Source of the DNA: Acidobacteriaceae bacterium
Lineage (GTDB): Bacteria > Acidobacteriota > Terriglobia > Terriglobales > Acidobacteriaceae
NCBI GenBank assembly: GCA_028283625.1
Contig: JAPWKG010000007.1
Span: 124,001-188,000 of the forward strand
DNA length: 64,000 nt
Reading direction: 5' to 3'
Shown here: positions 35,143 to 38,750 of the stretch, one piece after another
Position numbering within the stretch: position 1 is the first letter of the stretch
Layout: the number at the start of each line of letters is the position of its first letter
Program-made: the position numbers and the translations under genes
The notes under the pieces: generated by a model
What the model saw: only the letters and a program-made list of their open reading frames with translations
What the model was told of the DNA's origin: nothing
Database searches by the model: none

Positions 35143-35550
35143 TTAGCGATGGCGAACGACGGCGCCTCCATTCGGGCCGGTGCCTACGACGGTGGCATTA
35201 CCCGAGCCGCGGCCATAGACGTTGCGCGTTGCTGTCTGTCCGTTCGGCCCGGTTACCGTGCTGGAAGAGTTGCCACTTCCGCGCACTGTGGAGCGGCTGG
35301 CTGTCTGCCCGTTCGGCCCGGTTACCGAGGAGCTGACGTTGCCTGTACCGCGGCCGGTGACGTTACGCGTTGCCGTCTGCCCGTTCGGGCCGGTGTAGGT
35401 GGTGGAGACGTTGCCGTCGCTGCGCGTGGTGCTGGAGGAGGCCGTCTGCCCGTTGGGCCCGGTCACGGTCTTGCTGGAGGTGACCTGAGCGCTCAGTGCG
35501 GCGGTGGAGAGTGCAAGGGCGGCGAGGGGGAGGATCATGCTCTTCTTCAT
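35143..35550 (-). CDS. small secreted protein with TGPNGQTA repeats
   Basis: This 135-residue protein has a signal peptide (residues ~1-21, ending STAALSA). The rest consists of about five tandem units of ~22-24 residues, each beginning TGPNGQTA and continuing with Ser/Thr/Arg/Gly-rich sequence; odd and even units alternate (SSSTTR / TRNVTGRG / SRSTVRG / TRNVYGRG). It is hydrophilic and basic, with no Cys. The repeats could form beta-hairpins exported to the envelope, or be disordered. No function can be assigned. The downstream strand carries a spurious ORF from the same repeats. Confidence 0.75.
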   Translation of the reverse strand: MKKSMILPLAALALSTAALSAQVTSSKTVTGPNGQTASSSTTRSDGNVSTTYTGPNGQTATRNVTGRGTGNVSSSVTGPNGQTASRSTVRGSGNSSSTVTGPNGQTATRNVYGRGSGNATVVGTGPNGGAVVRHR

Positions 35551-35736: not shown

Positions 35737-36399
35737 TTACTTCTTCGGTGCTGCGCCCGTACCAGCGGTGGGGCGGTGCGGGGTGGGGGCCGAAGGCGCC
35801 GGAGCAGCAATACCCGAGCTGACGTTGTAGGCGTTGATCACGGCCTGGGTGATGTCGGTCGGAGCGGCGAACCACAGAACCGGGTTCGGCGACTGCTGGT
35901 TGCCACCCACGTTCATCATCAGGGTGAAGCCGTTGTCCTGTGCATACTTCACAGCGGCAGCGCCCACCTTCTGGGAGATCTTGCCGAGGGCGTCCTGGAT
36001 GTCAGCCTGGTAGGAGTTCTGCGCATCTTCCGCATCGCGGTTGAGCTGCTTTTCCTTCGTGTCGATTGCCTTCATGCGGCTGGCGCGCTCTTCATCGGGC
36101 GTGCTGGCCGGCAGAGCCTGAAGCTGCTTCTTGAGCGAGTCCACTTCAGCTGCGAGCGCGTCGATCTGGCTCTTCTTCGGCTCGTACTTCTTCTGGATGT
36201 CGGCAAACGCCTTCTGGCCTTCGTTGGTAGCCACTACGGCCTGTTCAAAGGCAATGATGGCAACCTTTGCAGGAATCGCTTCCGGCTTGACGTCAGCAGC
36301 GGCAGCAGGAGCCGCCGTGGTGGCTGCGGGAGCCTGGGCGGCGGCATAGGTGGAGGTAACAAGGCCTGCGGCCAGGGCGAGAACAAGCTTGCGGTTCAT
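35737..36399 (-). CDS. OmpH/Skp-like periplasmic chaperone
   Basis: This 220-residue protein has a signal peptide (MNRKLVLALAAGLVTSTYAAAQ) and an Ala/Pro-rich stretch, then the Skp opening KVAIIAFEQAVVATNEGQKAFADIQKKYEPKKSQI. A long charged coiled coil (~75-160, rich in Lys, Gln, Ala) forms the tentacle, followed by a closing strand AVKYAQDNGFTLMMNV with LWFAAPTDITQAVINAYN, as in OmpH. It should hold unfolded outer-membrane proteins in the periplasm. It is longer than E. coli Skp (161) because of Ala/Pro-rich termini. GAAGGAG lies before the ATG. bamA and lpxD, usual neighbours, are absent here. Confidence 0.85.
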   Translation of the reverse strand: MNRKLVLALAAGLVTSTYAAAQAPAATTAAPAAAADVKPEAIPAKVAIIAFEQAVVATNEGQKAFADIQKKYEPKKSQIDALAAEVDSLKKQLQALPASTPDEERASRMKAIDTKEKQLNRDAEDAQNSYQADIQDALGKISQKVGAAAVKYAQDNGFTLMMNVGGNQQSPNPVLWFAAPTDITQAVINAYNVSSGIAAPAPSAPTPHRPTAGTGAAPKK

Positions 36400-37607
36400 T
36401 GAGTGTTGAAGCTCCTTCAAAAGGTCCAGCGGACAAAGAAATAGAGGATGGCCGTATGCAGCAGCGGCTGAATCGCGGTACCGCTCAGGCGCCCGTAGCT
36501 TACACCCCGGGAGAAACAGTGGGTGGGCGCGAGACTCGAAACGGCTGAGCACGATTATAGGAGCGGCTCGGTATTTGGGCAACGCGCGGAGAGGAGTGTT
36601 TTTCGTGAAAATTGCACGGAAATCGATCGTGATCTCCCAAAAAGCGGAGGCAGAATCGCCGGTTTTCCGGATTTATAGAATCTTGAAGTGTAGGTCGGCA
36701 CTGTAACGGGTTGTAGTTTGAGTGGTTTGCGAAAAGCGGCTGTTTGGTACGCGGATTGCAACAGTGTTTAGCGTTCGGCAGTATCCGACGTTCAACGACG
36801 GGCAACACTGAACAAGTTCTCAACCGGGATACGAGACGCACCCACGAGGAAGCGCCGCCCAACCGAGAACTTCTAGAGGCTTACTCTCCCAACGATGGAC
36901 GAGAAGCTGATTTCTGGAGGCCAGTGACTGGCCATACGAAGAGCGGGGGCCGTCTTCCGGGGAGGGGAGATGGCCCTTGCTTATTCCGGCGAAGTTGCCG
37001 GAGGAACTCTTTACTTGCATCCTGAGGTCTACGGGCGTACTATCATCTCGTTCGCAGCGCGTGAAGCCTGCTAGACCCCAAACGAAGACTTGGTGCTGCA
37101 AGAGACGGTTGCTCTCAGGGAGAGCAACGGGAGCGGCGGAACCACCAGAAGGGTCCCATCGGCGGCCAACAGAGAAAGTCGCCAAACGAATACTAGGGTC
37201 TCCAACGAAGAATCCAGATCGAAGCTTTTGTGGTTTTGCCGAAGCAGGCATAGTTTCAGTGTGTATCGCTGAAGGGAAAAGCTGAGAGGTGGGGAGAAGG
37301 GAGCGCGGTCCAGTCCATCGGAGCGCGTGATTCGGAAACAAACAGTGCAGTAGGGGCCTCGCCGGTCCGGTAACGGATAACAAGGCGAAGCAGGCCTGGA
37401 AGTTCAGGCGGTGAGGAAGCGGTACTCCGAGCCGACCGTCATTCCGGGCACGATGATGGGCAAGCCGTATTGACGACCAGGAAGACGATTGATTTTGAAT
37501 CACGTTGAACTTCGCGCGACCGGGTTCCTGACGCTGTCGGAAGACAGCGGAAGACGGAGCCGGACGGGTGCGGCATGGCGTTTGCGGCAAGAGGAAAACA
37601 CAGCATC
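36400..37607 (+). ncRNA. gene-free 1.2 kb with a candidate large structured RNA / long leader (core ~36.76-37.55 kb)
   Basis: No credible protein gene lies here. Reading the plus strand, many self-complementary elements occur: a 7-bp pairing 36762-36768/36804-36810; an 8-bp pairing 36814-36821/36865-36872; 36919-36933 (6 bp, TGA loop); 36943-36980 (16 paired positions including G-U); 36985-37002 (6 bp); 37026-37077 (11 bp with one bulge); 37108-37128 (9 bp, AGG loop); 37355-37396 containing a TCCG-GTAA-CGGA tip; and 37532-37549 (7 bp closed by GGAA). Two GNRA-type tips suggest a folded RNA. The sequence is purine-rich on this strand and ends 59 bases before the next gene. I do not find RNase P, tmRNA, SRP or group II domain V signatures. 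Identity unknown. Confidence 0.5.
36756..36784 (+). promoter_or_regulatory. possible promoter of the structured RNA
   Basis: TTGCAA and CAGTAT are spaced by 17 bases. The -10 is weak (lacks the leading T), and part of it overlaps the first inverted repeat, so this is tentative. Confidence 0.25.
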
Positions 37608-38750
37608 ATGTCAGAGCAGAATCTTGTAGACGCCGCACAGATGGCCTTTGCGGACGACGATTTTGGCGGTGGGGATTTCGACTCCGCAGGCGATAGCGAC
37701 TTCGACCAGGCTGAGGGAGCAGACGGGCAACCGGCACCGGGCATGGGGCAGAGCAAGAGCTCACGCCGTAGACGCCGGAAGCGCAAGAATAAGATTGCAG
37801 GTCAGAGCCCGACTCAGGGCGAGGCTGCTGCTGAGGGGGGAGCTGCTCAGCCGACCATCGTGATGGAAGGCGAAAGCCTGGCCATGGCTGGTGCGGCTGC
37901 GCCGGCACCGGCTGCAGGTGGGCAGGGCAATGGCGGTGGTCAGCAGGGTGCTGGCGCTGGCGGCGCAACCGCAGGCAAGCGTTGGAAGAAGAAGTTCCGT
38001 GAGCGTGAGCGCCGTCCGCGTTCGGAGAATGCGGGCAATGATTTCCGCGGCGAGTCCAATCACAACGGTGGCGGCGGGTATGGCTATAACCGCAACCACG
38101 GTGGTGGACGTCCGGATAACTTCGGCAATCTGATTTCCGGGTTCAAGCGCAAGCAGAAGAACCAGCCGAAGGAGCGCGGATTTGTGGGACCGATGGACCA
38201 CAGCTATCGCGAGGCCCAGGGCAATCTGGATAACGCACCCCCTTCGACGATTAACCTGAACGGTAGCCGCCGTCAGGGGCGTCCGCAGGGTGATGGCCAG
38301 CCGATCGATTACAACGCACCGCGCGCGGTGCCGATTCCTGAAGACGCGCAGACGCACATCTACTTCTTTATTGAAGAGCTGTTCATCGTTGCGAAGATCC
38401 AGGAGGCAGCGCGCAAGCAGGGTGTGAAGGTCGCCTTCCTGAAGAACGAGAAGGAGTCCATTGAGCAGCTGGTGAGCGGTGGGGAAGAGAACAAGCCTGC
38501 GCTGATTGTTTTCGATCTGAACAATGCCAACGCCAAGCCGTTGACCACGATTCCGAAGCTGCGCACAAAGCTGAAGCGTTCGGTTTCGATCGTGGGCTAC
38601 CTCTCGCACCTGCAGGGTGACCTGAAGGTCAAGGCGATGGAAGCGGGATGCGATGTTGTGATGCCGCGCGCGGCGTTTTCGCAAAACGTACCGAACCTGC
38701 TGCGCCGCTACGGTGCGGAAGAGAACGACGAGATCAACTACAACTACTAG
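37608..38750 (+). CDS. Arg/Gly-rich disordered protein with degenerate receiver-like C-terminal domain
   Basis: The 380-residue protein has an acidic, Gly-rich N-terminus, a basic patch (SSRRRRRKRKNK), Ala/Gly/Gln-rich linkers and another basic RGG-like region with WKKKFRERERR and GGGGYGYNRNHGGGRP, all predicted disordered by composition. From ~245 a folded C-terminus resembles a CheY-type receiver: acidic pair Glu256-Glu257, a strand LIVFDLNN with Asp303 at the phospho-acceptor position, a VGYLSH strand with Ser, and VVMPRAAF where the conserved Lys is Arg354. It may be a pseudo-receiver. The composition suggests nucleic-acid, most likely RNA, binding. It lies 59 bases after a long hairpin-dense region. 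ATG 37608 chosen; ATG 37575 is in frame upstream. Confidence 0.65.
   Translation: MSEQNLVDAAQMAFADDDFGGGDFDSAGDSDFDQAEGADGQPAPGMGQSKSSRRRRRKRKNKIAGQSPTQGEAAAEGGAAQPTIVMEGESLAMAGAAAPAPAAGGQGNGGGQQGAGAGGATAGKRWKKKFRERERRPRSENAGNDFRGESNHNGGGGYGYNRNHGGGRPDNFGNLISGFKRKQKNQPKERGFVGPMDHSYREAQGNLDNAPPSTINLNGSRRQGRPQGDGQPIDYNAPRAVPIPEDAQTHIYFFIEELFIVAKIQEAARKQGVKVAFLKNEKESIEQLVSGGEENKPALIVFDLNNANAKPLTTIPKLRTKLKRSVSIVGYLSHLQGDLKVKAMEAGCDVVMPRAAFSQNVPNLLRRYGAEENDEINYNY

Follow-up and report, generated by a model that had tools for sequence, protein, structure and literature searches.

The DNA analysed here, a 64,000-nt stretch of an Acidobacteriaceae contig that we call the window, contains about 1.2 kb without a conserved open reading frame (ORF) between a Skp/OmpH-like gene on the minus strand and the ATG of a receiver-domain protein gene at 37608. 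An earlier note on this DNA had proposed that the gap contains one large structured RNA or leader and no credible protein gene. Comparison with relatives suggests the following features (window coordinates):

35740-36399, minus strand: Skp/OmpH-like gene, the divergent neighbour (Pfam OmpH, E=4e-21)
36635..36671, plus strand: candidate upstream activating sequence, an imperfect dyad TCCCAAAAAGCG-N13-CGGTTTTCCGGA that starts 111 bp before the -24 GG
36742..36759, plus strand: sigma-54 promoter GTTTGGTACGCGGATTGC, with the -24 GG at 36746-36747 and the -12 GC at 36758-36759
36770..36985, plus strand: RNA-1, a small RNA of ~216 nt recognized by covariance models, covariation and fold z-scores, its ends placed from promoter spacing and the terminator
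36916..36928, plus strand: near-invariant motif GGAGGCCAGTGAC, the exact complement of GTCACTGGCCTCC in a second RNA (RNA-2), overlapping hairpin D (36919-36933)
36939..36985, plus strand: terminator hairpin E with a short U-run, containing a 16-pair stem (36943-36980)
37015..37043, plus strand: sigma-70-like promoter TTGCAT-N17-TACTAT for the receiver gene
37050..37607, plus strand: 5' leader of the receiver gene, ~560 nt from a presumed start, with a weak folding excess
37608..38747, plus strand: receiver-domain protein of 380 aa with a basic, glycine-rich N-terminus and a C-terminal CheY-like fold

Four ORFs in the gap were searched against 25 same-genus loci. The minus-strand ORF at 36820-37590 gave six matches (E 0.001-0.008) and the plus-strand ORF at 36744-37025 gave nine, three of which contain stops; the best of these (4e-7) was to the close relative L032, 40% over 89 aa. 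No matches were obtained among these loci for the plus-strand ORF at 36977-37285 or the minus-strand ORF at 36500-36862. The matches among those listed (at most six per ORF) centred on the DNA-conserved core, and none of the four ORFs was conserved outside it. A protein gene in the gap was therefore rejected, in agreement with the earlier proposal. Elsewhere in the window, a 135-aa protein encoded on the minus strand (35143-35550) has tandem GPNGQTA-type repeats and no Pfam family. A tRNA/tmRNA scan of the window found none, and PADLOC returned no match.

A sigma-54 promoter precedes the conserved core, a hairpin with a U-run follows it and a sigma-70-like promoter comes next, from which we infer that 36770-36985 is a separate short RNA. 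Judged by sequence comparison, the region is two units, RNA-1 and then the receiver-gene leader with its own promoter. The picture of one RNA of ~860 nt ending just 5' of the protein gene is thus replaced by a structured RNA of ~216 nt (about 36770-36985) that ends at its own terminator, with ~620 nt and a separate promoter between it and the ATG. The four hairpins for which positions had been given (36943-36980, 37108-37128, 37366-37377 and 37532-37549) are all present in the sequence. Their assignment to one large folded RNA stands in part: the 16-pair stem lies within the RNA-1 terminator, whereas the GTAA, AGG-loop and GGAA hairpins fall in the leader.

Folding of 36700-37607 gave -355.8 kcal/mol (z=-3.6), and none of 20 dinucleotide shuffles was as low. 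The excess comes from the 5' part, where RNA-1 of the window had z=-4.6 (100 shuffles), and is weak in the leader that holds the other three hairpins (z=-2.1, 16 shuffles). Across species RNA-1 had a mean z of -3.8, with 58 of 61 loci below -2, compared to a mean of -0.25 and 3 of 40 below -2 for control segments. Among 12 leaders, z was between -2.3 and +1.5 in the eleven whose promoter had been located; the twelfth, L043, for which the leader start is a placeholder, had z=-6.1. In L043 and L044 a repeat-rich insert, REP-like by eye, widens the spacing between RNA-1 and the receiver promoter, and this insert probably inflates the L043 score. Loci L036 and L175 were left out of the fold and duplex statistics because their promoter pick was wrong or doubtful.

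The sigma-54 element, TTGG[CT]-N7-TTGC, was present in all 26 same-genus loci, 138-280 bp 5' of the conserved core. Over genus and family the pattern was found in 63 of 66 distinct loci, a count in which L175 is doubtful and L036 was mis-picked but is clear in the genus alignment; it was not found in L179, L183 and L184. With a promoter score built from the own genus, 26 of 40 non-genus rows scored above the 99th percentile of shuffled sequence. Sigma-54 promoters require an activator. The RpoN AID domain is present in the window's own genome, the one genome checked. In 12 of 25 same-genus rows the best dyad, of the form CCGAAAAACGGA-N17-TCCGATTTTTGG, begins 93-99 bp upstream of the -24 element, and the window dyad matches this form at 9 of 12 positions. 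In the other rows the dyad is weak. As inverted-repeat scores over all 63 rows were barely above those of shuffled sequence (mean 9.0 versus 8.5), we place weight only on the constant position and sequence of the dyad, which we regard as a candidate enhancer.

The RNA-1 unit of the window (36742-36985) combines the sigma-54 promoter, covarying hairpins, a near-invariant GGAGGCCAGUGAC and an intrinsic terminator. Two covariance models were built, R1 from 25 sequences and then R2 from 47. Both describe an outer stem (A), two hairpins (B and D) and the terminator E; one more hairpin, C, was noted by eye and lies outside the models. As to redundant rows, L045, whose core equals that of L042, was removed from row set A2, and L255, a near-copy of L231, from row set A5. 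Among the 47 sequences, double-sided changes occurred at 32 of 39 pairs. There were 280 double-change cells compared to 82.8 ± 9.1 in shuffles and 52-74 for slid structures; the alignment had been fitted to the structure, which biases the count in its favour. In hairpin E all 12 inner pairs showed double-sided changes and 99.2% of cells pair; in other genera its sequence differs while the hairpin remains, mostly with its U-run. Hairpin D showed no double-sided change, indicating that its sequence rather than its pairing is conserved. GAGGCCAGYGA was found in 70 of 71 loci and exact GGAGGCCAGTGAC in 53 of 71, and GAGGCCAGUGAC was retained even where the 3' arm of the hairpin was lost (L086, L088 and the loci L324-L329, L331-L334 and L341-L343 of g9, g43 and g135). 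By these comparisons, RNA-1 is a noncoding, structured RNA with an intrinsic terminator.

In a DNA search with the region, 26 of 61 genomes gave a match. They represent 26 of the 28 genomes of the own genus (own included), and none of the 33 genomes outside it matched. Model R1 matched 50 of 349 class genomes, with two weak matches in other families (G119 and G124). R2 at E<=0.01 found RNA-1 in 104 of 300 family genomes and 20 of 79 genera, G035 and G150 being partial matches and a few others weak. Across the phylum (396 genomes) it gave eight weak matches outside the family (best E=8.6e-5), five of them terminator-end fragments and three (G701, G712 and G818) full-length with E 0.002-0.007. 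A contig-database scan returned 18 records, with titles all naming Acidobacteria, Acidobacteriales, Acidobacteriaceae, Edaphobacter, Granulicella or Acidipila, and IMG/VR scanned with the core pattern gave none. Rfam 15 had no match above the gathering score in the window. A permissive search gave only mir-9428 there (E=0.65, 36581-36643, upstream of RNA-1), and at RNA-1 loci a CsrC match that lies outside RNA-1, at L043:4796-4837, with 21.6 bits against a gathering score of 61. Conservation, covariation and the absence of an Rfam match bear out the idea of an undescribed structured RNA.

The sigma-70-like promoter of the receiver gene, TTGC[AG]-N15-18-TA...T, was seen directly in 22 of 26 same-genus loci and in 25 of 26 with the alignment, which adds L043, L044 and L047; L052 had none by pattern or alignment. 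In the 21 of 26 loci with a located promoter, the ATG lies 566-931 nt away. The protein itself has no Pfam family, NCBIfam receiver matches far under the cut-off and no sequence match in the PDB. An AF2 model of its C-terminal domain (pLDDT 73; five models 39-73), from an alignment that left out L038 (reference misplaced, 24% identity), matched PDB response regulators (best E=6e-7), and this medium-confidence model suggests a CheY-like fold. RGG-like regions had been noticed in this neighbour, and its N-terminus is indeed rich in arginine and glycine. The protein of the window (37608-38747) and its relatives have an N-terminal arginine/lysine run and a conserved PMDHSYR motif. A long N-terminus occurs mostly in genera with RNA-1 and a short one in several genera without; as L093 has a basic N-terminus and RNA-1 was not found there, this pattern was discounted as evidence.

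All 26 same-genus loci have the receiver gene, and it lies downstream of RNA-1 in 38 of 40 scored non-genus rows, where the two misses are one genome counted twice and a few other genomes are also counted twice. The receiver domain is more widespread than RNA-1 (55 of 61 relatives). In the ~1.5 kb fetched upstream, the Skp-like gene was seen only in the own genus and g28. Wherever both neighbours were readable in same-genus loci the order was the same: divergent Skp-like gene, element, receiver gene. The position of the receiver gene after RNA-1, together with possible read-through where the U-run is short, speaks for one large structured RNA that serves this gene as its leader or riboregulator. 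We consider that explanation extremely unlikely, since RNA-1 has its own terminator, a separate promoter lies downstream, the leader folds weakly and complementarity between the RNA-1 motif and the leader is no better than for shuffles (6.3 versus 6.6). Pairing of the motif with the downstream leader was rejected on these values. RNA-1 as a contiguous cis-regulatory leader was also rejected because the terminator and second promoter intervene, although read-through is conceivable.

The complement of the RNA-1 motif, GTCACTGGCCTCC, was searched before RNA-2 was known. Allowing one mismatch, it had seven sites in the own genome, and the sole exact complement outside RNA-1 abuts a strong terminator:

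G000:C31:5679-5785 (L229:1980-2085): RNA-2, in the own genome and unlinked to RNA-1, with 18 conserved nt ahead of its terminator

Exact complements were found at further sites in most same-genus genomes; across all 28 of them the reversed control pattern matched once in forward and once in reverse orientation. Twenty-six of 36 fetched non-RNA-1 sites are one conserved element, TTGCGTCACTGGCCTCCC followed by a terminator, and ten are other sequence; the 26 come from 24 of 28 same-genus genomes plus G029 and G035. RNA-2 has a UUGCGUCACUGGCCUCCC stretch 5' of its terminator, and within the conserved 18 nt directly before the terminator it holds GUCACUGGCCUCCC, the exact complement of RNA-1 GGGAGGCCAGUGAC.

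The 25 aligned RNA-2 sequences were picked by the motif, so that motif identity among them is partly by construction. Model R3 (E<=0.001) found RNA-2 in 138 of 300 family genomes and 24 of 79 genera. Among 20 other-genus loci found by R3, TTGCGTCACTGGCCTCCC was exact in 16 and the motif was absent from L349, L355, L357 and L358; in other-genus loci the conserved stretch is constant while the terminator varies. L355 and L357 (G374 and G588) are second, weaker model matches without the conserved motif and are possible RNA-2 paralogues. Rfam searches of eight RNA-2 loci gave only tmRNA-type matches, and no family was accepted for RNA-2. A tmRNA_permuted match at L263:1748-2084 (46.6 bits, gathering 47) spans RNA-2 (L263:1965-2084) and was taken as overrun from the adjacent true tmRNA (L263:1513-1864). 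In three of the eight loci (L230, L237 and L263) the few kb retrieved around RNA-2 also include a tmRNA gene.

RNA-1 and RNA-2 co-occur. Both were present in 95 of the 300 family genomes, RNA-1 only in 7, RNA-2 only in 43 and neither in 155 (Fisher p=6e-35, shared ancestry ignored), with RNA-1 scored at E<=0.01 minus the partial matches G035 and G150, and RNA-2 at E<=0.001. Thirteen of 20 second motif sites fetched in RNA-2-only genomes are RNA-1-like (g9, g43 and g135) and seven are not (L330 and L335-L340). The 13 have a sigma-54 element by pattern in 11 cases and a receiver gene downstream in 11, and on these features g9, g43 and g135, although scored RNA-2-only, hold a diverged RNA-1. In g37, g158 and g177 RNA-2 is present and RNA-1 was not found with the R2 model or the exact 12-mer.

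Duplexes between the RNA-1 motif and a 23-nt RNA-2 consensus averaged -29.7 kcal/mol, and at each of the 71 loci the energy was lower than with any of 200 shuffles. A second RNA-2 site was detected at the 5' end of RNA-1 in 26 of 71 loci (p<=0.05; about four expected); in the own genus only L040 has it and g28 has none, and its register differs among genera. The whole-length RNA-1 × RNA-2 duplex was no better than shuffles (-78.7 versus -84.0 ± 6.4). That method ignores internal pairs, and joint folding (cofold) was used instead. For 21 same-genome pairs the mean interaction was -17.8 compared to -9.2 with shuffled RNA-2; at most 1 of 25 shuffles was as low in 14 pairs, and 2-5 of 25 in the other seven. 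Part of the RNA-1 motif is hidden by hairpin D, and the RNA-2 stretch is predicted to be on average 53% unpaired (26 loci). The variants CGAC (L038, L051, L053, L182 and L129) and UAAC (L055) mismatch RNA-2, which was unchanged in all five such genomes where it was read. Apart from a minority of uncompensated mismatches, extended complementarity is conserved on both RNAs.

These mismatches, and the seven of 21 species in which joint folding was not clearly above shuffled, could mean that the two RNAs do not pair and that both motifs were selected for a common third partner, either one protein or 16S rRNA anti-Shine-Dalgarno (SD)/mRNA SD mimicry, GGAGG and CCUCC being SD and anti-SD words. This is very unlikely in our estimate, as the exact complement extends over CAGUGAC, a segment that belongs to no SD word, and RNA-1 and RNA-2 tend to be found in the same genomes. 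The most conserved part of RNA-1 is the exact complement of a stretch in RNA-2; thus, the two probably pair and one titrates the other.

The most likely explanation, to which we assign a probability of about two in three, is that RNA-1 is a sigma-54-induced sponge for RNA-2. RNA-1 would be transcribed from its sigma-54 promoter under an enhancer-binding activator and would stop at its own terminator. Its near-invariant GGGAGGCCAGUGAC would base-pair with GUCACUGGCCUCCC of RNA-2, encoded elsewhere, and in several genera the 5' end would offer a second RNA-2 site. Small RNA seeds with CCUCC are able to block ribosome sites, and RNA-2 probably represses mRNAs via its SD-complementary CCUCCC end. 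A sigma-54 signal would then supply RNA-1 as a decoy and relieve RNA-2 repression. Hfq, for which a domain search gave two matches, probably assists the RNA-1/RNA-2 step. The promoter element, structure, terminator, complementarity and co-occurrence come from comparison; expression, cellular pairing, the part of Hfq, direction and targets are inferred.

Direction is where a further explanation enters, in which the pair forms and RNA-1 regulates mRNAs, with RNA-2 a constitutive antagonist or decoy. The pairing evidence is symmetrical, RNA-1 is longer, more structured and condition-specific, and some sigma-54 small RNAs are themselves regulators (Qrr; PMC10162802). We nevertheless judge this unlikely, because the 18-nt conserved stretch of RNA-2 exceeds the 14-nt complement, as expected of a seed with several targets, and stays the same where the terminator has changed, and because several genera have a second RNA-2 site on RNA-1 in differing registers. 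These points favour RNA-1 as the sponge.

A pair of RNA-1 and the receiver protein, along the lines of the RNA-protein pair raised earlier, is hypothetical and compatible with the conserved gene order; the partner pointed to by sequence is a second RNA, not a protein. The receiver protein may belong to the circuit as a candidate. We consider distinctly unlikely a three-part Acidobacteriaceae module in which RNA-1 and RNA-2 are brought together, instead of or beside Hfq, by a phosphorylation-gated receiver protein whose disordered tail is rich in arginine. If true, this protein would be a dedicated matchmaker, and the RNA that it serves would be induced by sigma-54 and titrate an anti-SD small RNA that is widespread.

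CsrB, CsrC and RsmY/Z, which titrate CsrA, are sponges rich in hairpins that carry GGA close to a hairpin, and RNA-1, as a presumed sponge, resembles them in this; a CsrB/RsmY-type sponge was rejected, as a search for CsrA in 31 genomes gave no match. Small RNAs disabled by sponge RNAs have precedent (PMC9732341 and PMC10470494). The QrrX sponge of Vibrio cholerae (PMC9732341) is alike in its Hfq context. As that source describes it, a LysR-type regulator activates QrrX and the Qrr RNAs are targeted, whereas here the presumed sponge carries the sigma-54 promoter; Qrr RNAs are themselves sigma-54-driven (PMC10162802). RNA-1/RNA-2 are set apart from QrrX by description, the sequence comparison consisting of the Rfam scans. 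CjNC110/CjNC140 of Campylobacter jejuni are likewise two small RNAs with a GA-rich/CU-rich contact, and CjNC110 is possibly under sigma-54 (PMC10470494). That pair belongs to another phylum and setting, and its contact was observed by gel shift whereas ours is seen by comparison. GlmY works as a decoy, as proposed for RNA-1, and is likewise transcribed from a sigma-54-dependent promoter; in GlmY this promoter has upstream activating sequences (PMC7073468 and PMC6075780). GlmY decoys the protein RapZ in the GlmY/GlmZ system, whereas the complement of RNA-1 is an RNA; there was no Rfam match to GlmY/GlmZ. Acido-1 and Acido-Lenti-1 (RF01686 and RF01687; PMC2864571) are also candidate noncoding RNAs of Acidobacteria, and neither was matched in the Rfam scans of the RNA-1 and RNA-2 loci. 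A paper on REP sequences, PMC12306157, mentions both Granulicella and sRNA often. In searches of open-access PMC papers, no such RNA or small-RNA circuit was found for Acidobacteria. With no Rfam 15 family accepted for either, we regard RNA-1 and RNA-2 as two new RNA families, although small RNAs and the sponges that titrate them are a known kind.

Acidobacteria are abundant in soil. If our interpretation is correct, the window contains half of a conserved circuit of two RNAs in these organisms. Its predicted signal input is sigma-54, the two RNAs are predicted to make contact over 14 base pairs, and the predicted output consists of mRNAs with GGGAGG-type ribosome sites. All three predictions would be testable in cultured Granulicella or Edaphobacter.
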